From positions 1 to 37,553 of IMG/VR virus record IMGVR_UViG_3300046028_003957: a DNA stretch of 37,553 bases, one strand, 5' to 3'. The notes below the pieces were generated by a model, which ran no database searches, was not told where the DNA came from, and saw only the letters and a list, made by a program, of their open reading frames with translations. Below are positions 1 through 23,821 of the stretch, in pieces. Position 1 is the first letter of the stretch. Every line of letters starts with the position of its first letter. Both the position numbers and the translations under genes were made by a program. Source of the stretch: a virus.

Positions 1-3000
1 TAGATGTTGATGTTCTTGTCGGTACCGGTGTTACGTTTCCACAGGAACTAATATTTCTTATATATGTTTTTAAATCTGTAAATCTAGTTGTTTCATAACA
101 ATAACTAGTACCAGAATAATAAAAATAGGTTGGTGTTGAGGTCCCTGATGAACCATTTAAACAACTATCTATGTTATTGAATATTTCAACATTTTGCAAT
201 AAAGTTGGACTTTTTGAATAAATTTTAACTGTTATTGGTTCTACTGCATTATAATATTGACAGGTATTAAAACAACTATTAAACAAATTATAAATTGGTT
301 CATTATTTAAATCGTATGTAACATAACCCACAATTATATTAAATTCATGACAAATATTTGTTGGTGTTGGTGTTGATGTTAATGTTTGTGTAAGGGTTTG
401 TGTTGGCGTAACTGTTCTTGTTGATGTAAGTGTAGGTGTTTGTGTTGGTGTAGAAGTTAATGTTATAGTCGGTGTAGAAGTTAATGTCGAAGTTGGTGTT
501 GGTGTTGATGTTGGAACGGGTGGACAATTTAAAATAAAATTCCAAACTGTTCCATCTAAAGGTGCGGTAACTACAACAGTTACTATTGAAGGAGAAACAT
601 TTGTTTTATTAAAAGATATACTATCATACCCAGTACCTGAAATATTAGGATACCCTAACGAATTTAAGACACCATTAAAGGTATCACTACCTCTAAAACC
701 GGTATCAATAACTTTATTACCATCCCAAAACACTTCAAATTTATCAGGTACATAATATGAATCAAAATCTAATGTGAAAAAACCAGTTAATGTGCCAGTA
801 TCAATTGTTATTGTTTGAATTGATTTTCCACCAGTCCCACCAGATGCGTCAACTTGTTCACCACAAGATGCTGTTTTATTAATTAATTCAAATCCTGTTT
901 GAGTTGGTGTTGGTGTTGATGTTAATGTTGGTGTAGGCGTTGATGTACCCGTATTTGTTGGTGTTGGTGTTGGTGTGAGTGTAGAAGTAGATGTTGGTGT
1001 TAAAGTTGGTGTTGGTGTTAATGTAGATGTTGATGTAGGAGTATTAGTTAATGTTTGTGTTGGTGTACTAGTTAATGTTTGTGTTGGTGTTGGTGTATTA
1101 GTTAATGTTTGTGTTGGTGTAGGTGTTGGAGTACTAGTTAATGTTTGTGTTATAGTTGGCGTTGGTGTTCCACTTAATGTTTGTGTAGGTGTCGGTGTAC
1201 TAGTTAATGTTTGTGTAGGTGTCGGTGTTAAAGTACTAGTCCTAGTTTGTGTGACAGTTTGTGTTGGTGTTGGTGTACTAGTTAATGTTTGTGTTAAAGT
1301 TGGCGTTGGTGTACTAGTTCTAGTTTGTGTGACAGTTTGTGTTGGTGTTAATGTTGGTGTACTAGTTCTAGTTTGTGTGACAGTTTGTGTTGGTGTTAAT
1401 GTTGGTGTACTAGTTAATGTTTGTGTTAGAGTTGGTGTTGGTGTTTGTGTTGGAGATAAAACACAACTACAAACTATAGACCAATTTGGCGTGAAATTTA
1501 ATACCGAAGTAACTTTAATTAAAACATCAGTAGATGATGAATTTTTACTAAATGAAAAACTACCTAAACCACCACCATTAACTGATGGATAACCTAAATT
1601 ATTTAATAAAGAATTAAACGTCTCATCACCTCTAAACCCTAAATCACTTATTAATATTCCATCAAAATAAACTTCAATTTTATCTGGAATACCACCAGTA
1701 TTATAATTTAACATTATATTGCCAATATCTTCACCAACGTTAACCGTCACGTAATAAATAACTTTATTAGTTAAATTTCCAGTAGAATCTATTATTTCAT
1801 CACAAGAACCTGTTTTATAAACTTCTTCAAATAATGTTTGTGTTTCAGTTAGTGTTGGTGTTTGTGTTGGTGTTTGTGTCTGCGTTGGTGTGGTAGTTAA
1901 TGTTTGTGTTGGTGTCGATGTCGGAGTACTAGTTAATGTTTGTGTTTGTGTTTGAGTAGATGTTAATGTTTGTGTTGGTGTTTGTGTTGGTGTTTGTGTC
2001 GGAGTACTAGTTAATGTTTGTGTTAGAGTTGGGGTTGGGGTTATTGAAGGAATACAATCAAAAATAGATTTTTCAAGTTCTTGATTTGATGGAATAACGT
2101 TACAATTTAATGAGTCAATATAATATTGTCCTGATTTAAAACTAACATTAGGATGTTTATCATATAAATGTCTCATTAATAGTTGATGATTTAAATTACC
2201 ACCAAATATTGTCAAAAATTGGTCAGAAAATATATTCCCATTTTTAGAAACATTTATATTATAATATAAACTAATATCACTATAATTTAAATCTACAGAA
2301 ATAACTTCAATTAAATTACCATATTGGTCAATTAAAAAATCTCCATTATCATATGGTTCATCTATTGTTAACGATTTTATTTGTAATTCCTCGGGAAATC
2401 TGTCATCAAAATGATAGATACCGTTTTTTATTAAACCAAAATTTTCAATATATTTATTTGTATATACACGTAATTCTGTATTTGGTAAAACTTCAAATAT
2501 TTCAATATTACCATTTTTTGTTTGACCTGTGATTATATTTTTTTTAACTGAACCTAAACATATTTTATCAGTTACCAATAATTTTGAATATTTGTAAATA
2601 AAAGATAAATCACCATAATTACCATTAATAAATTGTTGATTAGTAAGTCCTGAAACAGGTAAATAATTTACAGATAAAATATAATCACCTATTTGTAAAT
2701 CGTACACTGTTTTTTTATCTATTGTACCACCATATATATACGATTCAATTTCTTCTTTTGTTGTTGAATCATTAATTACAATATTTTGAGGTACAACTAA
2801 AACAAAACTATTTTCTTTTAATCCATAATTGTAATTTGAAGTATATTCTACATTAGGTTGTATTGTATAACACACATAATCATCACATAATGTAACACCA
2901 GAAATTTTAGATATAGTATTTCCAGTTGTTCCCTGATATGCAATTAATTCGAAAATTTCAATGTGACTTTTTTCATTTGATGTAGTTAATGGATCATATT

Positions 3001-6000
3001 CCATTTTAGGTTTTAACCCTACTAATTTAAATTTAACTTCATTATTTGCTGCATCAATAATATTGAAATCTATAACATCGTTTTCAGTAATACCTGTTAA
3101 TTTGAATCTATTATCGTACCCTTCAACTTTTTCAATAAAAATACTACTATTTTCACTATGTCCATTTATAGAATTAGTATATATATAAAATGGCCAGTTA
3201 TTACCATTTTGAATACTGAATTTTGTTCCAACAATATCAATAAAAATATCTGAAGATAAAAGACAATTTTCAGGTTCTTCACAATATTGTTCACCATCAC
3301 CACTTAATTGTACACTTAATCTATCTGTTAATTTAATTATTTGATAATCAGTTTCAAATCTATAACTAAAATAATCTTTTACTGAACAATCTTCAATACC
3401 GTATTTACAAGATGAAAATTTAATCAATTCAATACCATTTTCACCTATTGTTATAGAATATGTTAACATTGGTAAAGTTTCAACACTATATGTTTGACCC
3501 GTTGTTCCTGTAAATGGTCCATAATTTTCATATCCAGACGTATTTCTAGATATTGTCATAGAATTAATTAAATTAATTAACGCCCTCACCCATAAACTTT
3601 TTATTTTATTTAAATCAGTATTTAAATAATTTTTATATTCAGAAATTAACGCAATGTTTATCGGATCGTTACTAATCAAATCAGTACTACCTGTCATCGG
3701 GAATGGGTTGAATAGTTTAGCACTATTCGTTGTATTTGTTATTCCACTAACAACAACAACCATATCGTCAGTCAACATATCATAATTCGGACCACCAAAT
3801 ATTTTACTATCAATTTCTATTACAGGATAAAACGTAACTCCTGTTAAATTAATTAAACCTCTAAAATTTTCTTCTTCACCAATTAATGTTTCAATATCTT
3901 CAATAATTGCAGATTCAAAATCTGGATATACTTCTTCATAAAAATATTTAGGTTGACACCCAAATTTATACTGATATTTAGAACGACCAAATACATTATT
4001 TTCAATTAAATTACCACCACTCCATAATGTTGTTGATGGTAATAATTGTTCAATTAATTTAACCCAATATGGACTAATTTTATTCACAAACTCTTGAGAA
4101 TCAATAAAGGTAAAAGACGTAAATCCAGCCTTTGAAACATAATCTCTGTATATATCTTCAAGAACTATATAATTTTTCTTATACCTTATTATGTGTGAAT
4201 TTTTCACTTGTTTGTGTATAAAATTATTCACAAATTCAGCAAAAGTAACACCTGTTTGTGGAGGTAAAGTAGCACTACCAAAAGAAATTCCTAAATCTCT
4301 CGATTTCCTATATATGTCATAATTTATAGAATTAGACGCAGAAATATGTATTGAAATATTTTTTCTATTAAGAATTAATTTAGAATCACTATCAATATTA
4401 TGTGCTTTTATATTATCAATTTCAGATTTTAAACCGAAACCCGTATCTAATCCAGGTAATGTTCTGTATATATCAAAATAATCTTCACCATAAGTGTAAT
4501 CCTTATTTTTTGTTTTAATAATTTTAGTTCTACCTGTTAAATCTGAATTTTCATTATCAATAACTGTTGGTGAACGATGGTCAAGAGTTACATCATACCA
4601 CCCAGCACCTTTTTCAAAGAAAATATCATCAGATTCACTAAAAGCCCTTCTAGGTAAACCAGTATTTTCATCAACAGGATAACCATATCTACTGAAATTT
4701 GTTATACCATTAGTTTCAGATTTTGTATATGAATATGTGGTTGGGTTAAATTCAGCAACATAATATTTTTTTTCACCTGAAATAACATCATAAATGTCTT
4801 GTTCTAAATCAAAACTATTAGGAAATGATGTTACTTGGTAAACATATTCATCAATCTTTATTAATGGTTCAGGTGCACCTAAAAATTTTAAAAAAAATTC
4901 AATTGAAGATCTGGTTCCTTTAGATTTAAAAATAAAAGATAAATTTACTAACAACCTTTTATAAAATTCATATTCAGATTCTACTAAATTTAATCCTATT
5001 GGTGAACCTTCATAAGATGAGATTGATCTAGTATATAAAACATCGTTTAATGTTTTTTCATCAAATAAATTAGTCGTCGAAAAACCTAAATTTTCTGATA
5101 AATTTTTTAATAAAATATCAGGTAAATTATTAATCCCATCATAACTTACATTTCTCATATAAGCTATATTATCAATATATTTTTTTACATTATCAAAACT
5201 TTGCCCATATAATTGAAAAACATTTTGTGCTCTTTTATCTTCCGTATCAAATTCAAACAATTGAGGGGAGGATAAAAATCTAACCATAATGTTTGATTTA
5301 TAGTTATCCACTTCATCTGATATTGTTTTTAAATTTTCAACATATGTTTCAAATTCTAAACCTGTAATAGCAATATTCCACCCATCACTAGATAATGGCC
5401 AATTATATTCAACATTTTGTAATGTTATACTTGAACCATCATCACTATTTGAAGGTATTTCAAATCTAGAAGAATAAATTGGTACAGTTTCTCTATTCAA
5501 AAGAGATTCTTCAATATCATCTAAATCAGAAAAAAAATCTTCAACTATACCATCATTAGGCCGGATTATAAAATTTTTATTATATGATGTTTCTGAATTA
5601 AATGGATTTCCATTGACAACTAAGATTATTTCATTAGATGAATTTGATTCAGTATAATTAATTATTGGATAATTTTCATTATTAACTAATATAACATATT
5701 TCGTATATGATGAATAAAAATTTCTTATCTCATTTTCTGTAGGTGACTTTATTAAACTATTAGGTGTGATTAATGAAATATCAAATGGATTAAAAATTTT
5801 ACTTTCTTGAATATAAAAAGTTGTTCTATTTAAACCATAATCATATGTTATATTATATGCAGAATATGAATTATTCGAAATTGGACCAGATGCATTTATT
5901 TCAAATCCACTAGGAAATTTATTTATTATTTTAGTTATCGATACTAATAATCTTTCTTTTAATGAACCAAATAAAGATTTATCTGCATTTCTTTTATTTG

Positions 6001-6271
6001 TTTTAAAACGAATTGAATTTTTTTTATTTTTTTGTCCTGTTGGTTCAATTACATCAATATTTTCTTTTTTATTGATGTCCTCTAAAGTTATAAATTCTGA
6101 AAATGGTTCAGACCTAAAAGATTTTTCATCTTTTTCTGGTATAACTTTATCTATTTCAAATACAGTATTAGCAAGCGAAGGACTACCTGTAGTAATTTGT
6201 CTTCCAACTAAATTATCATTAAATGTTTCTGACCCATTGGCCGCTTGATTTGGTACTTTTCTATTCGCCAT
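1..6271 (-). CDS. Giant baseplate wedge/adhesin-like protein (gpI/gp7-like), 3' end outside window
   Basis: An open frame starts at ATG 6271-6269 and I read it without a stop to the left edge, at least 2090 codons; the C-terminus lies outside the window. The start overlaps the previous gene's stop as TAATG. Around residues 390-480 there is a pattern resembling the P2 gpI / T4 gp7 wedge family: an Arg-Leu-Leu helix, then KSKGTR (about residue 450), then a helix ending FLGAPEP. Downstream of residue 1400 the protein alternates Thr/Pro repeats (about 1410-1479, 1606-1791, 1917-1971, and from 2080) with globular domains (about 1480-1605, 1792-1916, 1972-2080). The first two globular domains are clear duplicates; the third is Cys-rich and different. 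Position after gp25 and gp6 homologues supports a baseplate role. I infer a wedge protein carrying a stalked receptor-binding extension. The gp7 assignment is moderate; coding status is firm. Confidence 0.85.
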   Translation of the reverse strand, partial: MANRKVPNQAANGSETFNDNLVGRQITTGSPSLANTVFEIDKVIPEKDEKSFRSEPFSEFITLEDINKKENIDVIEPTGQKNKKNSIRFKTNKRNADKSLFGSLKERLLVSITKIINKFPSGFEINASGPISNNSYSAYNITYDYGLNRTTFYIQESKIFNPFDISLITPNSLIKSPTENEIRNFYSSYTKYVILVNNENYPIINYTESNSSNEIILVVNGNPFNSETSYNKNFIIRPNDGIVEDFFSDLDDIEESLLNRETVPIYSSRFEIPSNSDDGSSITLQNVEYNWPLSSDGWNIAITGLEFETYVENLKTISDEVDNYKSNIMVRFLSSPQLFEFDTEDKRAQNVFQLYGQSFDNVKKYIDNIAYMRNVSYDGINNLPDILLKNLSENLGFSTTNLFDEKTLNDVLYTRSISSYEGSPIGLNLVESEYEFYKRLLVNLSFIFKSKGTRSSIEFFLKFLGAPEPLIKIDEYVYQVTSFPNSFDLEQDIYDVISGEKKYYVAEFNPTTYSYTKSETNGITNFSRYGYPVDENTGLPRRAFSESDDIFFEKGAGWYDVTLDHRSPTVIDNENSDLTGRTKIIKTKNKDYTYGEDYFDIYRTLPGLDTGFGLKSEIDNIKAHNIDSDSKLILNRKNISIHISASNSINYDIYRKSRDLGISFGSATLPPQTGVTFAEFVNNFIHKQVKNSHIIRYKKNYIVLEDIYRDYVSKAGFTSFTFIDSQEFVNKISPYWVKLIEQLLPSTTLWSGGNLIENNVFGRSKYQYKFGCQPKYFYEEVYPDFESAIIEDIETLIGEEENFRGLINLTGVTFYPVIEIDSKIFGGPNYDMLTDDMVVVVSGITNTTNSAKLFNPFPMTGSTDLISNDPINIALISEYKNYLNTDLNKIKSLWVRALINLINSMTISRNTSGYENYGPFTGTTGQTYSVETLPMLTYSITIGENGIELIKFSSCKYGIEDCSVKDYFSYRFETDYQIIKLTDRLSVQLSGDGEQYCEEPENCLLSSDIFIDIVGTKFSIQNGNNWPFYIYTNSINGHSENSSIFIEKVEGYDNRFKLTGITENDVIDFNIIDAANNEVKFKLVGLKPKMEYDPLTTSNEKSHIEIFELIAYQGTTGNTISKISGVTLCDDYVCYTIQPNVEYTSNYNYGLKENSFVLVVPQNIVINDSTTKEEIESYIYGGTIDKKTVYDLQIGDYILSVNYLPVSGLTNQQFINGNYGDLSFIYKYSKLLVTDKICLGSVKKNIITGQTKNGNIEIFEVLPNTELRVYTNKYIENFGLIKNGIYHFDDRFPEELQIKSLTIDEPYDNGDFLIDQYGNLIEVISVDLNYSDISLYYNINVSKNGNIFSDQFLTIFGGNLNHQLLMRHLYDKHPNVSFKSGQYYIDSLNCNVIPSNQELEKSIFDCIPSITPTPTLTQTLTSTPTQTPTQTPTQTLTSTQTQTQTLTSTPTSTPTQTLTTTPTQTQTPTQTPTLTETQTLFEEVYKTGSCDEIIDSTGNLTNKVIYYVTVNVGEDIGNIMLNYNTGGIPDKIEVYFDGILISDLGFRGDETFNSLLNNLGYPSVNGGGLGSFSFSKNSSSTDVLIKVTSVLNFTPNWSIVCSCVLSPTQTPTPTLTQTLTSTPTLTPTQTVTQTRTSTPTLTPTQTVTQTRTSTPTPTLTQTLTSTPTPTQTVTQTRTSTLTPTPTQTLTSTPTPTQTLSGTPTPTITQTLTSTPTPTPTQTLTNTPTPTQTLTSTPTQTLTNTPTSTSTLTPTPTLTPTSTSTLTPTPTPTNTGTSTPTPTLTSTPTPTQTGFELINKTASCGEQVDASGGTGGKSIQTITIDTGTLTGFFTLDFDSYYVPDKFEVFWDGNKVIDTGFRGSDTFNGVLNSLGYPNISGTGYDSISFNKTNVSPSIVTVVVTAPLDGTVWNFILNCPPVPTSTPTPTSTLTSTPTITLTSTPTQTPTLTSTRTVTPTQTLTQTLTSTPTPTNICHEFNIIVGYVTYDLNNEPIYNLFNSCFNTCQYYNAVEPITVKIYSKSPTLLQNVEIFNNIDSCLNGSSGTSTPTYFYYSGTSYCYETTRFTDLKTYIRNISSCGNVTPVPTRTSTS
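359..523 (-). repeat. Thr/Pro low-complexity tract 3
   Basis: CA-rich on the coding strand and GT-rich on the plus strand. It encodes alternating Thr with Pro, Ser, Leu, Gln or Arg in the TPTPTST style, about 55 residues, linking duplicated domain B to the Cys-rich third domain of the giant protein. A further tract begins at the left edge (about 1-35), so the pattern continues outside the window. Confidence 0.85.
524..898 (-). repeat. Duplicated globular domain, copy B
   Basis: About 125 residues of the giant protein. It shares with copy A an ordered set of motifs: an early SCGE (SCDE in A), PDKFEVFWDG, DTGFRGSDTFN, LNSLGYP, then SISFNK, and a Cys near the end. Both copies are in the same reading frame and bracketed by Thr/Pro tracts. 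The composition suggests a beta-sandwich, possibly carbohydrate- or receptor-binding; I do not recognise the family. Confidence 0.8.
899..1455 (-). repeat. Thr/Pro low-complexity tract 2 (longest)
   Basis: About 185 residues built from units such as TPTQTLTS and TPTLTPTQTVTQTRTS. It includes a near-perfect tandem 48-bp duplication at 1323-1418 and a related partial copy just to its left. The tract separates duplicated domains A and B and is likely an extended, possibly glycosylated, stalk. Repeats of this type are prone to copy-number change. Confidence 0.85.
1323..1418 (-). repeat. Tandem 48-bp repeat, two copies
   Basis: Unit 1323-1370 is followed directly by 1371-1418. They match at the first 45 positions and diverge only in the last three bases. 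The unit is 48 bp, so it adds or removes exactly 16 codons without changing frame. It encodes a TPTLTPTQTVTQTR-type peptide within tract 2. Confidence 0.9.
1456..1834 (-). repeat. Duplicated globular domain, copy A
   Basis: About 125 residues of the giant protein, paralogous to copy B (524-898). It contains PDKIEVYFDG, SDLGFRGDETFN, LNNLGYP and SFSFSK in the same order, with Cys residues near both ends (SCDE at the start, CSC at the end). Both copies keep the frame fixed by ATG 6271, which argues for an internal duplication. Function unknown. Confidence 0.8.
1835..2043 (-). repeat. Thr/Pro low-complexity tract 1
   Basis: About 70 residues of Thr alternating with Pro, Gln, Leu and Ser, starting after the CIPSI motif that closes the N-terminal structural part of the giant protein. 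It is the first of at least four such tracts and marks the change from wedge-like sequence to modular extension. Confidence 0.85.
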
Positions 6272-16667: not shown

Positions 16668-17120
16668 TTATATATTGATAATTATAAAATCTGATGAACT
16701 AAATGGTTCGTTATTAATGTCATAATCAATTCTAACCTTAGCAGTGTAAGGTTTTGTAGAATTACTTGATACTCTGAATAATCTACTATCACTTTCTTCG
16801 CTAACGCTTGAAAGTTCCTCAGTATCTTGATCAGCTTGTACTATTCTTATTTCTGTTATATCTAAATTTGGAATAAATTTTTTAACTGTTGTTCTAATTT
16901 CATCCTCAATCATTTGAAATGTAACAGAATCGTTTGGTTCAAAAATATATTCATAGAGTCTTGTACCAAAATCAGGTAAATAATACCTTGTCCCTCTTCT
17001 AGTTAATATTAAATGTAACAAATTCGCTCTTATTTCTCTGTCAGGCGTTTCAGTCATATTAAAAAATGTACCTCTTCTACTTTCATTAAAAGGAAAATCT
17101 ATACCATACGTTTTTGCCAT
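16668..17120 (-). CDS. Baseplate wedge protein gp25 / GPW family (150 aa)
   Basis: Residues 40-53 hold the family core, TRRGTRYYLPDFGT, followed by an L-Y-E-Y-I-F-E-P helix and a helix ending KKFIPNLDI, as in GPW/gp25 baseplate proteins, which are small wedge proteins that nucleate the sheath. Length (150 aa) is typical. It is first in the wedge module, follows a terminator by about 40 nt and is followed one base later by the gp6/J homologue. The upstream spacer is nearly all A/T with two TATAAT-like hexamers, so a promoter here is likely. Despite the historical 'gp25-like lysozyme' label, a structural role is better supported. Confidence 0.92.
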   Translation of the reverse strand: MAKTYGIDFPFNESRRGTFFNMTETPDREIRANLLHLILTRRGTRYYLPDFGTRLYEYIFEPNDSVTFQMIEDEIRTTVKKFIPNLDITEIRIVQADQDTEELSSVSEESDSRLFRVSSNSTKPYTAKVRIDYDINNEPFSSSDFIIINI

Positions 17121-17160
17121 ATAAAATATTATATTATTTGTTTATAAATATTATAAAATA
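17121..17160 (-). promoter_or_regulatory. Probable promoter region for wedge module
   Basis: A 40-nt, almost purely A/T spacer between the terminator and gp25. The minus strand carries TATAAT at 17155-17150 and 17133-17128. A promoter is expected because the terminator should stop readthrough from nrdA, but in sequence this A/T-rich the hexamers may be chance and no -35 element is evident. Confidence 0.25.
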
Positions 17161-17186
17161 AAAAACCCAACTTTAAGTTGGGTTTT
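17161..17186 (-). terminator. Intrinsic terminator after nrdA
   Basis: Inverted repeat AAAACCCAACT / AGTTGGGTTTT around a TTA loop. On the minus strand the stem is followed by TTTTTTATTTT, as expected for a rho-independent terminator. It would end the replication/dNTP transcript, and any RNA made from 17187-17290, just before gp25. The plus-strand side also has a short T-run, so bidirectional action is possible. Confidence 0.85.
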
Positions 17187-17290
17187 AAAATAATTCGTGT
17201 TTTGATATTCGCCCCCTGTATTTTCAAAACATAGAAGCTTAAGGTACGCCTTAACGACAGTATAGTACTTTGAGGGAGCCTCCCATATAT
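17187..17290 (-). ncRNA. Candidate structured non-coding RNA between nrdA and gp25
   Basis: About 104 nt without a credible ORF and visibly richer in G/C than its surroundings. It contains four inverted repeats in series: TGTTTTGA/TCAAAACA (17198-17205 with 17224-17231), TTAAGG/CCTTAA around a four-base loop (17239-17254), AGTA/TACT (17259-17269), and the 11-base palindrome GGGAGCCTCCC (17274-17284). The last three are each separated by four bases. On the minus strand the loop of the first repeat carries GGGGG, which could pair with CUCCC of the palindrome as a pseudoknot. A terminator follows directly. It could be an independent small RNA, the processed 3' UTR of nrdA, or a protein-binding array; I do not recognise a known RNA family. 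Confidence 0.4.
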
Positions 17291-20200
17291 TTACGAACTA
17301 CAACCTTCACAATCAAATAATGAATCAGTTGGTTTAATGGGTTCTATTATATTAGTATCATTTTTTATTACAAATGTATTAACACTGGAAGTGTCAATAC
17401 CTAAACCTTTTAATGGGTCAACCGCTGACCTTGTTCTTAAATAATACATACCCGTTTTTAATCCAAGTTTCCACCCATAGATATGTGCTGCTAATAATTT
17501 TTGTTTTGTTACATTATCAATAAATAAATTTAACGATTGTGATTGGTCAATATATACTGAACGATTTGATGCCATCATAAGAATTCGTTTCTGTGACATT
17601 TCCCAAACAGTTTTAAATATTTCTTTTATGTCTGTTGGAATTTCAGGTATATTTTGTACTGAACCATTTTCAATAATTAATTTCTTTTTTATATCTTCTG
17701 ACCATAAATCCTTTTCTAATAACATCTTTATCAAATGTTTATTTATCATTACAAATTCACCACTTAATGTTCTCCTCGTATATAAATTTGTAGTGAATGG
17801 TTCAAAAGCCTCATTGTTTCCTAATATTTGTGCAGTGCTCGCTGTCGGCATCGGTGCAACTAAAAGTGAATTTCTAACACCATGTTTTAAAATTTCTTCC
17901 CTTAATGATTTCCAATCCCATCTACCACTATTATCTTCGTCTTTTTTATTCCATAATTGGTATTGAAAAATTCCTTCAGATAGTGGAGACCCATTAAATG
18001 TTTCATATGAACCATTTTTTTGTGCCAAATCTTTTGAAGATGTTAATGCGGCAAAATAAATTGTTTCAAAAATCTCTATTTGTAGTTTATCCGCTTCATT
18101 ACTTTCAAATGGTAATGATAATAAACAAAAAACATCAGCTAAACCTTGTACACCAATACCAATAGGTCTATGTCTCATATTAGACCTTTTTGTTTCTTCA
18201 GTGGGGTAAAAATTTAAATCAATAACATTATTTAAATTTTTAACTACTTGATATGTGTATTCATATAATAATTCATGATTAAAAACATTATCAGTAATAT
18301 ACTTCGGTAAAGCGATGGATGCTAAATTACAAACGGCCTGTTCTTCTGGTGAACTAAATTCTATTATTTCACTACAATTAAATGTTTTTAATCCTTGTGA
18401 AATAAAAATATGTTCGTTATTATAAATTGTTGGGCAATAAACATCTTCTTTTCCTACATAATCAATTGATATAACTTTATAACCTTTTTTTGTATTGTTT
18501 CTGTACGTTTTATTTTCTAGTTTAATACCTTTTCTGTCTAAAAAACCCGTGTTTTCATTTAAAACAAGAGCATCGTTTTTATTACCAATAATCAATCTAA
18601 AACAATCTTTACATTTAAAGTATTTTTTCCCACCTTTTCCATTTGGTAATAAATTGTACGATTCTTTTCTCAATAACCTAATCGATGTTTGTAAACCTAA
18701 ATTATTAAATAAAATCTGTAATTCCTTTAAAAAATCAATATTAATATCAGCATATGATATTTGTATAGGATTTCCTTCACTGTTACTAACATGTACTGTA
18801 CCATCAGTATATAATAATCCCCTTAAATAACTCCATTGTGTTTTTTCATTTGATGACCAAATCCAATTTGGAATGTATCCTTTTTCAAATTTTAAATCTT
18901 TTTTAAAAAACTGTGATGTTAATCTTTTCTTTTTAACTGTTGAGAACTTAACTTCGCAATTAATAAATTCACCACCTTTATTTGAATATCTCGGAGTATA
19001 ATCATATTTTTTATAAAGATTTGAAACTGATTTTTCTATTTCATCTATTAAATCAAAATCATTTTCCCATATATCAAAATAAAGAGTGTTAAGTGATTGT
19101 GTCCCATCTGATTGATATAAACCAAGTAAAAAAGCTTCTTCAACCATTTCAACATTACCAAATAATCCTTTTTTTGTTTGAATTGGTATCTTATCACCTA
19201 TTTTTAAATCTTTACATTCTACACGTGTTATATTATTTCTTAAGTCAATAATAGGTATACCGTGATATGGTGTTACTTTATGTTCCATACCATTTTCTAA
19301 TGTTATTTTATACACATCTTCATTTTCCCCACGTTTAATCATTTTAGATGATTTAACGATTTCAGAATCATTAAAAAGTTCCAATTCTTCATCCATTTCA
19401 TGAAGTTCTTTCGCTGTTAAATATCCTTTTGTTGTTACTACTCTTTGGTCACCAGTTATACAAAGATTTGAAGATTTAATCGTGCCAAGATTTTTTTGAT
19501 TTGATTTATAATTTGCCGCGTCCTTATATAACATATATGGTGTACCAGTTTCTATTTGTGCAGTTAAAATTGCGTCCATTAATTTTCTAGCCTTAACCAC
19601 TTTTCTTGCTCTTCCTTCTTTTTCATACTTCTCATACAATTCTGTAAATTCTTGTGTAAACTTATATGGGTCATCATAAACATCAGATAATCCTGGTGCT
19701 TCGTCAGGTGAAAATAATGACCAATCTCCATCTTCTTCTACACGTTTCATAAACAAATTAGGAGTCCACATTGCTAAAAATAAATCTCTTGCTCTTAATT
19801 CTTCTTTCCCATGATTTTTCCTTAAATCAATGAATTCAAAAATATCTGAATGCCATGGTTCAAGATAAACAGCAAAAGAACCTTTTCTCTTCCCTCCATT
19901 ATGAACTAAACAAGACGTTAAAGTATATGAAGGATCTTCGTCATTTTCTTTTATTTTTAAATCGTAAACTTTACCATCGTAATTGTCTAACATTTTTACA
20001 CTTGTAATTCTAGTGTAAAGAATATTATCCCATATTATCCAATTTTTTTTGGTTATTTCTTCAACATTTAATAAAGTTGCAAGTTCATTAAATGAAGGTA
20101 TTCTTAAATCACAAGACAGTGTAAATTCTTGTGTACAACCATTTTCTTTTAAATAAACACTACTATTTTCTCTATTACTCCATTTACCATATGTTGGTAC

Positions 20201-21853
20201 ACCAAATCTAAGTATTTGATAGGATATATCTTCAATTAAAGATTCACTAGTATTATAGAAATGAATTTCATTTTTTCTATAAACACCACCGTCCGATTTA
20301 ATTAAACCTAAAATTATTTTTATTGATTTTTTTAATGGTAAATGTGAATATTTTTTATGTATTCTTTTTTTCTTCTTATCATCATAAAGTTGTTCATATG
20401 ATAACCAAGATAATTTAGATAAAGAGAATCTAATAGAAAGATATGGTTTATCACTTATAGTGTATTCCCAAAAATTTATATCTTTTTTAGATAGATATTT
20501 TTTAACAAAATCAACTTCTTTATCATTTGTTAATTTATTGAATGATATCCCCACTTCATTTTTAGAAATATGTCCATCACCTAATAATAATCCATAAATA
20601 AATGCGTCATCTTCTGTAAAATCATCAACATCAATAATTTCTTTTGGTATTGGTTTACCAATAAAATCACCAACTTTATATTCTCCACTATCTATCCAAT
20701 CAGGTGAAACTATTCCCTTTTCTAATTGATTAAGGTAATCACTATTTTCTCTAGAAATCCTATTATAGGTATTTTTAAAACCAAATAGTGGATGTCCATC
20801 TGTTAAGATTAATGGTTTTAATGATGATTTTGTTTCAATTTCAATCATGCCACCATTTTGTTGATAACAAAAAACTTCTCCAACTTCAGAATATTTTCTT
20901 TCTTTAGTTAAAACTAAATCACCACTTTTAATTTCATCTATTCTTTTTATACCTTCACTGGTGTATAATAATGTTTCAGGAGAAAAACACTGGTTGATCC
21001 AACGAGCAACTTCATTATATGTCTTCATCATTGGAATAAGTCCGTCAGATTCACCACCAGTCCCTTTTATGTAAGAACCTTTACCTCTAACATCATGAAC
21101 ATGTAATCCAATACCACCAGCCCATTTTGATATTTTTGCAACATCTTTTATAGTGTCAAATAAATTATCGATATCATCACCTTTATTTGCAACTAAAAAA
21201 CAAGAAGACATCTGAGGTCTTACTGTTCCTGCGTTAAATAATGTCGGTGTTGCGTGAGTATAGTATTGTAATGAAAGGTCATCATATATTTTAAGTGCCA
21301 TTTCTATATCTCCATTACATATCCCTACGGCAACTCTCATATACATATATTGTGGTCTTTCAACTATTTTTGAACCGTTTTTTAAAAGATATGAACGTTC
21401 AAGTGTTTTAATACCAAAATAATCAAAATCAAAATCTCTATCTTGTTTAATTGTATTATCTAATATTTCTTTATTTTGAATAACAAATTGATAAACATCA
21501 TTTGCAATTAATGACGTTTCTTTACCTGTTTTTGATTCAACAAACGAATATAATTCTTTAATAGATTGTGAGAATTTTTTTGGTGTTGTTTTATGTAAAT
21601 TAGACACTGCTAACCTTCCCGCTAATTTTGCGTAATCAGGATGTGTTGTCACAAGTGAAGCGGCAGTTTCTGCTGCTAACGTATCTAATTCATTTGTAGT
21701 AATACCATCATATATCCCTTGTGTTACTTTTAAAGTAATTAATGTTGGATCAATATATTCTTTATCTAAATCATCACAAAAATATTGTATTCTCTTTGTA
21801 ATTTTATCATATCTCATTTCCTCTAAGGAACCGTCTCTTTTTTTTACCTTCAT
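17291..21853 (-). CDS. nrdA: Class I ribonucleotide reductase large subunit with two inteins (1520 aa precursor)
   Basis: Reduces ribonucleoside diphosphates to deoxyribonucleotides together with NrdB. Removing the inteins (289-652 and 798-1159) leaves 794 residues, the usual class Ia length. Visible features: N-terminal ATP-cone (KKRDGSLEEM onward, about 1-90); first redox Cys in SSCFL (C218); GGKRKGSFAVYLEPWH after intein 1; SNL-CSEIIEF with the thiyl-radical Cys (C1160) and the Glu two residues on; partner Cys in AVCNLAS (C1175); PMPTASTAQILGNNEAFEP; and a C-terminal CEGC redox pair. The start is six bases after the nrdB stop, with AATAAAAA before ATG. Intein 1 is followed by Gly, not Cys/Ser/Thr, so its splicing may be impaired; this is the main doubt about a single-chain mature product. 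Confidence 0.97.
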   Translation of the reverse strand: MKVKKRDGSLEEMRYDKITKRIQYFCDDLDKEYIDPTLITLKVTQGIYDGITTNELDTLAAETAASLVTTHPDYAKLAGRLAVSNLHKTTPKKFSQSIKELYSFVESKTGKETSLIANDVYQFVIQNKEILDNTIKQDRDFDFDYFGIKTLERSYLLKNGSKIVERPQYMYMRVAVGICNGDIEMALKIYDDLSLQYYTHATPTLFNAGTVRPQMSSCFLVANKGDDIDNLFDTIKDVAKISKWAGGIGLHVHDVRGKGSYIKGTGGESDGLIPMMKTYNEVARWINQCFSPETLLYTSEGIKRIDEIKSGDLVLTKERKYSEVGEVFCYQQNGGMIEIETKSSLKPLILTDGHPLFGFKNTYNRISRENSDYLNQLEKGIVSPDWIDSGEYKVGDFIGKPIPKEIIDVDDFTEDDAFIYGLLLGDGHISKNEVGISFNKLTNDKEVDFVKKYLSKKDINFWEYTISDKPYLSIRFSLSKLSWLSYEQLYDDKKKKRIHKKYSHLPLKKSIKIILGLIKSDGGVYRKNEIHFYNTSESLIEDISYQILRFGVPTYGKWSNRENSSVYLKENGCTQEFTLSCDLRIPSFNELATLLNVEEITKKNWIIWDNILYTRITSVKMLDNYDGKVYDLKIKENDEDPSYTLTSCLVHNGGKRKGSFAVYLEPWHSDIFEFIDLRKNHGKEELRARDLFLAMWTPNLFMKRVEEDGDWSLFSPDEAPGLSDVYDDPYKFTQEFTELYEKYEKEGRARKVVKARKLMDAILTAQIETGTPYMLYKDAANYKSNQKNLGTIKSSNLCITGDQRVVTTKGYLTAKELHEMDEELELFNDSEIVKSSKMIKRGENEDVYKITLENGMEHKVTPYHGIPIIDLRNNITRVECKDLKIGDKIPIQTKKGLFGNVEMVEEAFLLGLYQSDGTQSLNTLYFDIWENDFDLIDEIEKSVSNLYKKYDYTPRYSNKGGEFINCEVKFSTVKKKRLTSQFFKKDLKFEKGYIPNWIWSSNEKTQWSYLRGLLYTDGTVHVSNSEGNPIQISYADINIDFLKELQILFNNLGLQTSIRLLRKESYNLLPNGKGGKKYFKCKDCFRLIIGNKNDALVLNENTGFLDRKGIKLENKTYRNNTKKGYKVISIDYVGKEDVYCPTIYNNEHIFISQGLKTFNCSEIIEFSSPEEQAVCNLASIALPKYITDNVFNHELLYEYTYQVVKNLNNVIDLNFYPTEETKRSNMRHRPIGIGVQGLADVFCLLSLPFESNEADKLQIEIFETIYFAALTSSKDLAQKNGSYETFNGSPLSEGIFQYQLWNKKDEDNSGRWDWKSLREEILKHGVRNSLLVAPMPTASTAQILGNNEAFEPFTTNLYTRRTLSGEFVMINKHLIKMLLEKDLWSEDIKKKLIIENGSVQNIPEIPTDIKEIFKTVWEMSQKRILMMASNRSVYIDQSQSLNLFIDNVTKQKLLAAHIYGWKLGLKTGMYYLRTRSAVDPLKGLGIDTSSVNTFVIKNDTNIIEPIKPTDSLFDCEGCSS
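18377..19462 (-). mobile_element. NrdA intein 2 with LAGLIDADG-type homing endonuclease
   Basis: 362 residues (NrdA 798-1159) between SNL and CSEIIEF. It begins CITGDQRVVT (block A), has TPYH (block B), two dodecapeptides with intact Asp-Gly (GLYQSDG and GLLYTDG), block F VYCPTI, and ends LKTFN before Cys. The penultimate residue is Phe rather than the usual His. The +1 extein Cys is the catalytic thiyl-radical cysteine of NrdA, so splicing chemistry and enzyme chemistry use the same residue. The C-terminal half resembles the NrdB intein (shared LPNGKGG motif and preceding helix). Confidence 0.93.
19898..20989 (-). mobile_element. NrdA intein 1 with LAGLIDADG-type endonuclease and unusual +1 Gly
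   Basis: 364 residues (NrdA 289-652) between ARWINQ and GGKRKGSF. Block A is CFSPETLLYT, block B LTDGHPLF, dodecapeptides are YGLLLGDGH and LGLIKSDGG with intact Asp-Gly, block F is KVYDLKI, and the end is CLVHN. I re-read both junctions in the DNA: TGT (Cys) at 20989-20987 and CAT-AAT followed by GGA. The +1 residue is therefore Gly, which cannot act as the transesterification nucleophile of a class 1 intein. Outcomes could be atypical splicing as in A-type bacterial intein-like domains, or cleavage giving a split NrdA. Confidence 0.92.
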
Positions 21854-21859
21854 TTTTTA

Positions 21860-23821
21860 TTAAAATTCTATATCGTCAATATTATTTATGTCATCAATTG
21901 AACTATTAGTCATAATTCCCGCTTTTTGATATTCGGCAACTCTTTTTTCAAAAAAGTTAGTTTTACCTTGAATAGCAATATTCTCCATAAAATCAAATGG
22001 ATTTGCAGTGTTATAAACTTTAGATACGCCTAAAGAAACTAATAATCTGTCAGTAACAAATTCTAAATATTGTGACATTAATTTTGAATTCATACCAATA
22101 AGACTAACAGGTAAAGATTCAAGAATAAATTCTTTTTCAATTTCTAATGCTCCACATATAACTTCTTTAATTCTTTCATCCGTTAATTTATTAGTTATAT
22201 GGTTCATATATAAATGACAAGCAAAATCACAATGCATACCTTCATCCCTTGAAATAAGTTCATTGGAAAAAGTTAAACCAGGCATTAATCCTCGTTTTTT
22301 TAACCAAAAAATAGAACAAAAAGAACCTGAAAAAAATATACCTTCAACTGCGGCAAATGCAACTAATCTTTCAACAAATGATTCAGAATTAATCCATTTT
22401 ATTGCCCAATCAGCTTTCTTCTTAACAGATGGTATTGTATCAACCGCATTAAACAAATGATTTTGTTCTACTTTATCTTTTATGTATGTGTCAATTAATA
22501 ATGAATACGTTTCACTTTGACTAGTTAAAATACCGTTAAATACCCCCGCATGTTCTTTTGGTTCGTTAAAACAATATGTCATTTCTTCAATATTTTCATC
22601 ACTAATAGATTCTATTCTTATTAATTTTCTTTTTTCTTTAATTTTGGATTTACTTAATAAATTTAACCTTTTTGTATTTAATCCAAGATTTAGTAATTTA
22701 TTTACAGACGACGTTGTTATGTATAAACAGTATGTTGGTTGTGTTGGATAGTTTTCGTACCCACCTTTACCATTTGGTAAATAAGACGTACCTTCTTCTT
22801 TAGTTAATTTTAAATTTGATTTAATACCTAATGTGGTTAATAATAATTTAACTTCTTTTATAAAATCTAAATTAATAGAAGTATACTGTATTGATGTAGC
22901 GGTTTTTGATTTATTCAAATTTATACATCCATCTGCGTCAAATAAACCACTCAACCATTCTAATTTAGTTTTTGTTGAAAAATTAGTTGGTACAAAATAT
23001 TTCTCTTTATTTATTTTATCTGTTAAATAAAATTTAAATTTATCTTTATTATCATTTTCTTTTACATTAAAATATTCAAATAATTTTTCTTTATCACCAT
23101 ATAGTTTTAAGTAGGGGTATCCATTACTATATGACCCATCACCACAAAAGAAACCATGTATATATGGGTTAATGAATATTTCAGGATCAACCACATCAAT
23201 TAATGGTAAATCAAAATCATGAACAACATCACCAATTTGTAGATTTTTTGTTTCAATTAATTCTCTCTTTGTTCTTTCGGGATGTAATTGATTCCCTGTC
23301 CTAATAAACCATTTATGCCCATCAGTACATCTAATAGTAGTCCCGTCACTTAATTTAACACTGTAAATTTTTTGGACCCCTGTTTCTTCAATTAGTACTT
23401 CAGAAAATTGTTTTCCATTCCATACATTAACTTTATTATTAACTAAATTACCAATTTCAATTTGACCTTTATCTGTCAATATTTTAGTTTCTTTTGATAC
23501 GCAATGTATGTTTTCCATCATTATTTGAAAACCATAAAAGAACTTTGCTTCTGTATATTGTACTTCATTAACAAAATTCATTGCTAAATTTTCATTTACA
23601 ATACCATCTGATGCTGCAAAAAACGCTAATACGTTTTTAACGAAATATTTTTCATCATCGTTTAATTTATTTTCCCAATCAGTAATATCTTGACCTAAAT
23701 CAATCTCTTCAGCGGTCCAAAAACACGCTTCTTGTTGTTTATAGTAGTTCCAAATATCGTTATGTTCGATAGGAAAAAGGACAAAACGTCCCTTGTTTTC
23801 TTCTAAAATTTTTTCAATCAT
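21860..23821 (-). CDS. nrdB: Class I ribonucleotide reductase small subunit with one intein (653 aa precursor)
   Basis: Houses the di-iron/tyrosyl radical cofactor for NrdA. Without the intein (107-435) the protein is 324 residues, normal for R2. Ligand motifs are visible: Asp in FFAASDG (D72), E103 and H106 in MMENIH, Glu in AAVEGIFF, and Glu/His in RDEGMH. The probable radical tyrosine is Y439 in SETYSLL, four residues after H106 once spliced. The C-terminal IDDIEF tail resembles the flexible tail through which R2 subunits bind R1. It lies six bases before nrdA and 13 bases after the helicase gene. An unspliced precursor would separate E103/H106 from the radical Tyr by 329 residues, so activity should require splicing. 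Confidence 0.97.
22517..23503 (-). mobile_element. NrdB intein with LAGLIDADG-type endonuclease and C-terminal Gln
   Basis: 329 residues (NrdB 107-435). It begins [10 protein letters not shown], has block B CTDGHKWF, dodecapeptides HGFFCGDGS and SGLFDADGC, block [11 protein letters not shown], and ends FNGILTSQ before Ser. The intein's last residue is Gln instead of Asn and the penultimate is Ser instead of His; Gln-ending inteins are known and can splice. The insertion point lies directly after iron-ligand His106 and before the SETY radical-tyrosine motif. Junction codons checked in the DNA: TGC at 23503-23501, CAA at 22519-22517, AGT at 22516-22514. Confidence 0.94.

Follow-up and report, generated by a model that had tools for sequence, protein, structure and literature searches.

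We report a conserved RNA of about 95 nt, encoded on the minus strand (the nrdA strand) of an uncultivated phage fragment, where it follows the nrdA stop codon and precedes an intrinsic terminator. It is one of a family of small pseudoknotted RNAs of phages that appears to be undescribed. The structure of this RNA, its covariation, strand, distribution, copy number and genomic contexts are established by the comparisons described here. We give a probability of roughly 55% to the reading that it would be the product of a stand-alone, trans-acting RNA gene.

Structure and covariation of the RNA after nrdA

The fragment (IMGVR_UViG_3300046028_003957; 37,553 nt or 37.5 kb, analysed as a whole and called the window) has a G+C content of about 27%, and carries on its minus strand T4-like genes for a UvsX-like recombinase, an exonuclease, a DnaB-like helicase, nrdB, nrdA, and gp25-like and gp6-like baseplate proteins. 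Inteins with LAGLIDADG-type domains interrupt nrdA (two; 17291-21853) and nrdB (one; 21860-23821), and an open frame of at least 2090 amino acids at 2-6271, minus strand, runs off the contig end. The gap between the nrdA stop codon and the gp25-like gene spans 17121-17290. Read along the minus strand, it consists of a G+C-richer segment (41% over 17195-17290, as compared with the window average), followed by an intrinsic terminator at 17186-17162; both the enrichment and the terminator had been noticed in a previous sequence-only reading. The RNA begins 5 nt past the stop codon. Its features are as follows, R1 being a covariance model built from the first nrdA-type variants.

17291 to 21853, minus strand: nrdA, large subunit of class I ribonucleotide reductase, interrupted by two inteins; gene upstream of the RNA, listed for context
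17198 to 17285, minus strand: conserved structured RNA, from P1 5′ strand to stem X 3′ strand; R1 score 83.4 bits, E 1.2e-15, the only strong match in the window; homologues
17280 to 17285, minus strand: P1 5′ strand UGGGAG, pairs with 17232-17237; 99.7-100% of cells paired, with A-U/U-A and GC/AU/GU changes
17273 to 17279, minus strand: pseudoknot 5′ strand GCUCCCU, pairs with 17211-17217; compensated variants GC/AU, UG/GU/CG/AU and CG/UA
17259 to 17269, minus strand: optional hairpin P1.5, AGUA-CUA-UACU, of the long-linker form; AU/GC, GC/CG and UA/CG/AU pairs in the 18 sequences having it
17239 to 17254, minus strand: hairpin P2, UUAAGG-CGUA-CCUUAA; both-side changes in 5 of 6 pairs
17232 to 17237, minus strand: P1 3′ strand CUUCUA; same covariation evidence as the P1 5′ strand
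17224 to 17231, minus strand: stem X 5′ strand; both-side changes in 6 of 7 pairs in the nrdA-type set
17217 to 17221, minus strand: near-invariant AUACA, overlapping the start of the pseudoknot 3′ strand by its final A, which is paired; recovered by a pattern not specifying it
17211 to 17217, minus strand: pseudoknot 3′ strand AGGGGGC, inside the stem X loop; same compensated variants as the 5′ strand
17208 to 17210, minus strand: near-invariant GAA after the pseudoknot 3′ strand; comparison of relatives
17198 to 17205, minus strand: stem X 3′ strand; stem X covariation in the nrdA-type set
17162 to 17186, minus strand: intrinsic terminator that would form the 3′ end; 11-bp stem and T-rich tail, also kept in relatives without the RNA
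16668 to 17120, minus strand: gp25-like baseplate wedge gene (PF04965); downstream gene, context only

The four inverted repeats on which the sequence-only reading was built are all present, and both outer spacings are exactly 4 nt. Three of them are conserved helices, namely stem X (17198-17231), P2 (17239-17254) and P1.5 (17259-17269), whereas the fourth (17274-17284, GGGAGCCTCCC) is not a hairpin but the P1 5′ strand adjoining the pseudoknot 5′ strand. A pairing between a G5 loop and CUCCC had been guessed correctly and extends to 7 bp. The statement that the gap holds no open reading frame was right in substance, as there is no conserved frame opened by a start codon. Read-through of the nrdA stop codon was rejected: the frame stays open for about 50 codons in the window, closes early in relatives, and most other contexts lack a frame upstream of the RNA. 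A 42-nt similarity of stem X to 21912-21953 within nrdB (79%, E 4.6e-4) concerns sequence that varies between relatives; we took it as chance and discarded the idea of a coding remnant.

Folding energy on the sense strand is weak (z = -1.66) and unconvincing, so the case rests on comparison with relatives. A search of viral contigs with the NrdA C-terminus yielded 80 loci. In most of them an RNA of this kind separates the nrdA stop codon from a terminator, and in the rest the terminator stands by itself. In the initial set of 20 variants, 87.6% of cells are paired and double changes number 49, versus 15 in shuffles. A pattern for both pseudoknot strands then recovered at least 120 stretches, most of them clear members and many located away from nrdA. 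The core common to these homologues comprises P1 (GGUG/CAUC), the 7-bp pseudoknot (GCUCCCU/AGGGGGC), P2, the optional small hairpin, and the near-invariant AUACA and GAA.

Across 65 cores, pairing reaches 99.7% in P1, 98.5% in the pseudoknot, 97.2% in P2 and 92.6% in P1.5 of the long-linker form. Overall 98.1% of cells pair, both sides have changed in 129 cells versus 27 in shuffles, and the covariation score is 0.277 versus 0.108 in shuffles, a value that none of 500 shuffles reaches; covariation collapses in slid controls. Stem X is likewise supported by covariation in the nrdA-type set. The constancy of the 65 cores is inflated because they were partly chosen for their pseudoknot strands. 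This bias is removed by patterns with free positions and by a pattern built from P2. When a non-U was required on the pseudoknot 5′ strand and three inner 3′ positions were left free, 20 stretches were found, and all nine distinct variants are compensated at the tested position (GU 5, AU 1, CG 3). Two more, both paired, came from another pattern aimed at the adjacent position. A pattern made from P2 and its flanks only recovered 92 stretches, nearly all of which then continue as AUACAGGGGGYGAA, with few single-base departures. The sequences L013, L021, L038, L040, L057 and L063 come from the NrdA scan, with no selection on the RNA. The sequence-only reading had proposed a structured functional RNA, to be abandoned if relatives lacked conservation or covariation; relatives have both, including covariation of the pseudoknot.

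P1 and the pseudoknot contain 141 G-U cells and a single A-C cell, which indicates function in an RNA of the window's minus strand and rules out an element acting at the DNA level. The conserved structure pairs at 98-100% on this strand and at 77-84% on the opposite strand.

The same core is closed in two interchangeable ways, by an outer stem X or by P0 plus P4. The strand downstream of GAA takes part in both. In X-type members, which include the window copy and have a longer P1, its partner is the strand ahead of AUACA. In P0-type members its partner is the strand that precedes P1, and most of these members have a hairpin P4 between P1 and AUACA. The window copy has the long linker and a P2 loop CGUA; short-linker members have UUAAUGGU or similar, and their P2 loop is mostly YNGA. 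Permuted types of known ribozymes, for example hammerhead, likewise present one core with different strand connections.

Distribution and relation to known RNAs

The family occurs in well over a hundred uncultivated phages, usually as one copy each. By blastn with several variants, only two of 50,697 phage records match, the uncultivated megaphages LR756504 and LR756500, which were confirmed with model R2 at 68 and 57 bits, respectively; a family of isolated phages was rejected on this ground. Plasmids gave no match. Bacterial genomes gave five matches in 84,980 species, one of them real, and R2 found members in 2 of 380 genomes of the phylum of that real match. One member lies beside chromosome-like genes on a Beckwithbacteria contig (L236), and members in two genomes of the surrounding phylum (L302 and L303) also adjoin chromosome-like genes, a transposase-like gene following in L302. 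In a related bacterial genome, a member lies beside folD-like and gyrA-like genes, named from their protein starts rather than by family search.

No match above the gathering cut-off was obtained with the 4,227 models of Rfam 15 in the window or in three nrdA-type loci, in agreement with the earlier view that the RNA fits no known family. In six other loci the same models found tRNA and tmRNA and nothing at the element itself, although the tmRNA match borders or spans it in two of the six; searches by E-value returned chance-level matches only. In open-access literature, preprints excluded, we found no paper describing the RNA, and sequence strings gave nothing relevant, though a description may exist elsewhere. 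The family thus appears to be undescribed and to have no relative among Rfam models, while in biochemical terms it may yet turn out to act in a known way.

Several small or structured RNAs of phages invite comparison. T4 rnaC and rnaD are also small phage RNAs without assigned function that lie beside tRNA genes on the same strand. With filters off, the best R2 match in the T4 tRNA region scores 8.8 bits and falls outside both; neither rnaC nor rnaD (L269:1409-1672) matches the model, and they may still be functional analogues. GOLLD and ROOL are phage-associated structured RNAs of unassigned function, often found near tRNA genes; they are several hundred nt long and unrelated to the RNA described here. 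The X form shares its topology with a circularly permuted pistol ribozyme, but there is no Rfam match, no conserved bases are shared and the linkers differ. The HDV-like, pistol, hammerhead and twister classes were all rejected, as Rfam gave no match and their features were absent.

Gut phages also have HDV-like theta ribozymes, likewise located near tRNAs (PMC10879173), and the likeness extends to the strand order of the pseudoknot, P1-P2-hairpin-P1′-P2′ (PMC10879173). Theta ribozymes place the cleavage site at tRNA 3′ ends and require a catalytic C as the first base of J4/2 (PMC10879173). In our RNA, by contrast, an 8-nt linker precedes the hairpin and the position relative to tRNAs varies. 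The junction reads AUACA, with its only C in last place, next to the pseudoknot strand, and even this C is not invariant, being A in the L021 and L057 lineages. Nor does the RNA fit a P1 that starts at a cleavage site 5 nt or less from a tRNA 3′ end: it is mostly 5′ of tRNAs or tmRNA or far away, and its outer P1 pair is GC, AU, GU, CG or UA.

Genomic contexts and copy number

We counted contexts for 135 distinct elements among the matches listed. By an automatic rule that misses some reductases, such as those of the L123, L177, L209 and L218 group, 47 of these follow class I reductase genes. Another 20 lie in tRNA clusters and 42 in other contexts; 19 precede a phage tmRNA by about 20 nt, and 7 lie within one. 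None is antisense to tRNAs, and tRNA neighbours are always on the same strand; this arrangement, reminiscent of T4 RNA C and D, is absent from the window. The link to nrdA is incidental, as most relatives outside the window's clade carry the RNA elsewhere.

In all nrdA-type phages the RNA begins 0-8 nt past the stop codon, ahead of a terminator, and the same core follows three kinds of reductase gene (two NrdA types and a class II reductase). In L123, L177, L209 and L218 the class II (B12-type) reductase replaces NrdA. These observations favour a cis-acting 3′-UTR element, whose pseudoknot beside the stop codon would protect the nrdA mRNA 3′ end or tune decay or termination, and the fixed post-stop place is the best argument for it, but one confined to the nrdA clade. 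The association is not restricted to nrdA: the same core occurs between tRNA genes, within tmRNA, 5′ of tmRNA and immediately behind a promoter, and on different flanks of one structural gene in the syntenic phages L150 and L205. As a tmRNA leader cut away by RNase P, it would be unable to protect the product, and relatives without the RNA keep only the terminator. We consider this cis role rather improbable. The nrdA setting, in which an aptamer-like core precedes a terminator, might also suggest that a nucleotide-pool ligand is sensed by a riboswitch or attenuator acting on the downstream gene; as the genes downstream are unrelated (tRNAs, tmRNA, baseplate genes and others) and no alternative pairing with the terminator was noticed, this is scarcely credible. 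The RNA is kept where the downstream gene differs among nrdA relatives.

In the tmRNA cases a putative Bacteroidetes-type promoter (TAnnTTTG) ends just before P0, so that the element would be the transcript start. In L122, L133, L144, L149 and other tmRNA cases, a boxA-like GTTCTTTGA separates the RNA from the tmRNA. Antitermination or an anti-Rho function for untranslated transcripts would suit this 5′ position, the tRNA arrays and the boxA-like sequence; it is nevertheless very unlikely, as the nrdA-type RNA is followed at once by a terminator, which relatives without the RNA also have. The core lies inside the tmRNA in L155 (8634-8725), L190, L194, L310, L328, L356 and L357. In L155 it immediately follows the tag reading frame, at the place expected for a tmRNA pseudoknot.

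A new self-cleaving ribozyme, trimming transcripts next to tRNAs, tmRNA and mRNA 3′ ends, would agree with the size, the near-invariant core, the conserved wobble pairs, the two closings with their resemblance to permuted hammerhead types, and the tRNA-side location of the theta ribozymes (PMC10879173). Such a ribozyme would, however, cut internally in seven tmRNAs, its distance to any processing site is not constant, no Rfam ribozyme model matches, and the most catalytic-looking base is the C of AUACA that two lineages have replaced. From sequence, self-cleavage therefore seems unlikely.

When records that bear the element were searched over their whole length with R1 and R2, 65 of 66 distinct ones, up to 311 kb long, had a single strong copy; as the records may be incomplete, such counts are a lower bound. 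One gene per genome, independent of its neighbours, is the pattern of a trans-acting RNA. The only record with two copies is that of L225 (293,850 bases, a 294-kb phage), whose second copy (L276) is diverged, with a different P1 and AUAUA in place of AUACA.

A candidate trans-acting RNA

We infer transcription, trans action and a partner from these comparisons. Trans action is suggested by the single copy per genome, the unrelated neighbours, the constant strand with respect to neighbouring transcription and the tolerance of different ends. Counted against it, the constant distance of 0-8 nt from the stop codon in the nrdA clade would suit a cis role well, and a single copy is also what one would see for a unique cis site that each genome uses once. 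In addition, some close relatives lack the RNA at the nrdA locus; there it is dispensable, replaceable or located elsewhere, the last being conceivable because contigs are fragments.

The trans-acting RNA would probably bind a protein or another RNA through a rigid core made of P1, the pseudoknot directly adjoining it, P2, and the unpaired AUACA and GAA strands beside the pseudoknot. In the window it would be the 3′-terminal piece of the nrdBA transcript, ended by the terminator. In other phages, a flanking tRNA or tmRNA could supply an end via RNase P, or else the RNA may stay embedded as a domain. Bacterial sRNAs derived from 3′-UTRs are likewise RNAs of mRNA ends finished by the gene's own terminator, but these pair antisense through short unpaired seeds, whereas the conserved part here is a compact pseudoknot, with no conserved unpaired stretch long enough for a classical antisense sRNA. 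The compact core, the near-invariant A-rich strands and the conserved wobbles suggest catalysis, or recognition by a protein or another RNA, in preference to antisense pairing.

The core tolerates two strand connections and occurs by itself, within a tRNA array, in the tail of an mRNA or in a tmRNA; tentatively, it could represent a new catalytic or ribonucleoprotein RNA class used by many kinds of phages. Direct tests can build on the covariance models, on the two closings and on its clean presence or absence behind nrdA. A single-copy and strongly conserved RNA in phages that differ widely in genome size and base composition is almost missing from catalogued phages, and such a distribution points to a common, undescribed phage need.
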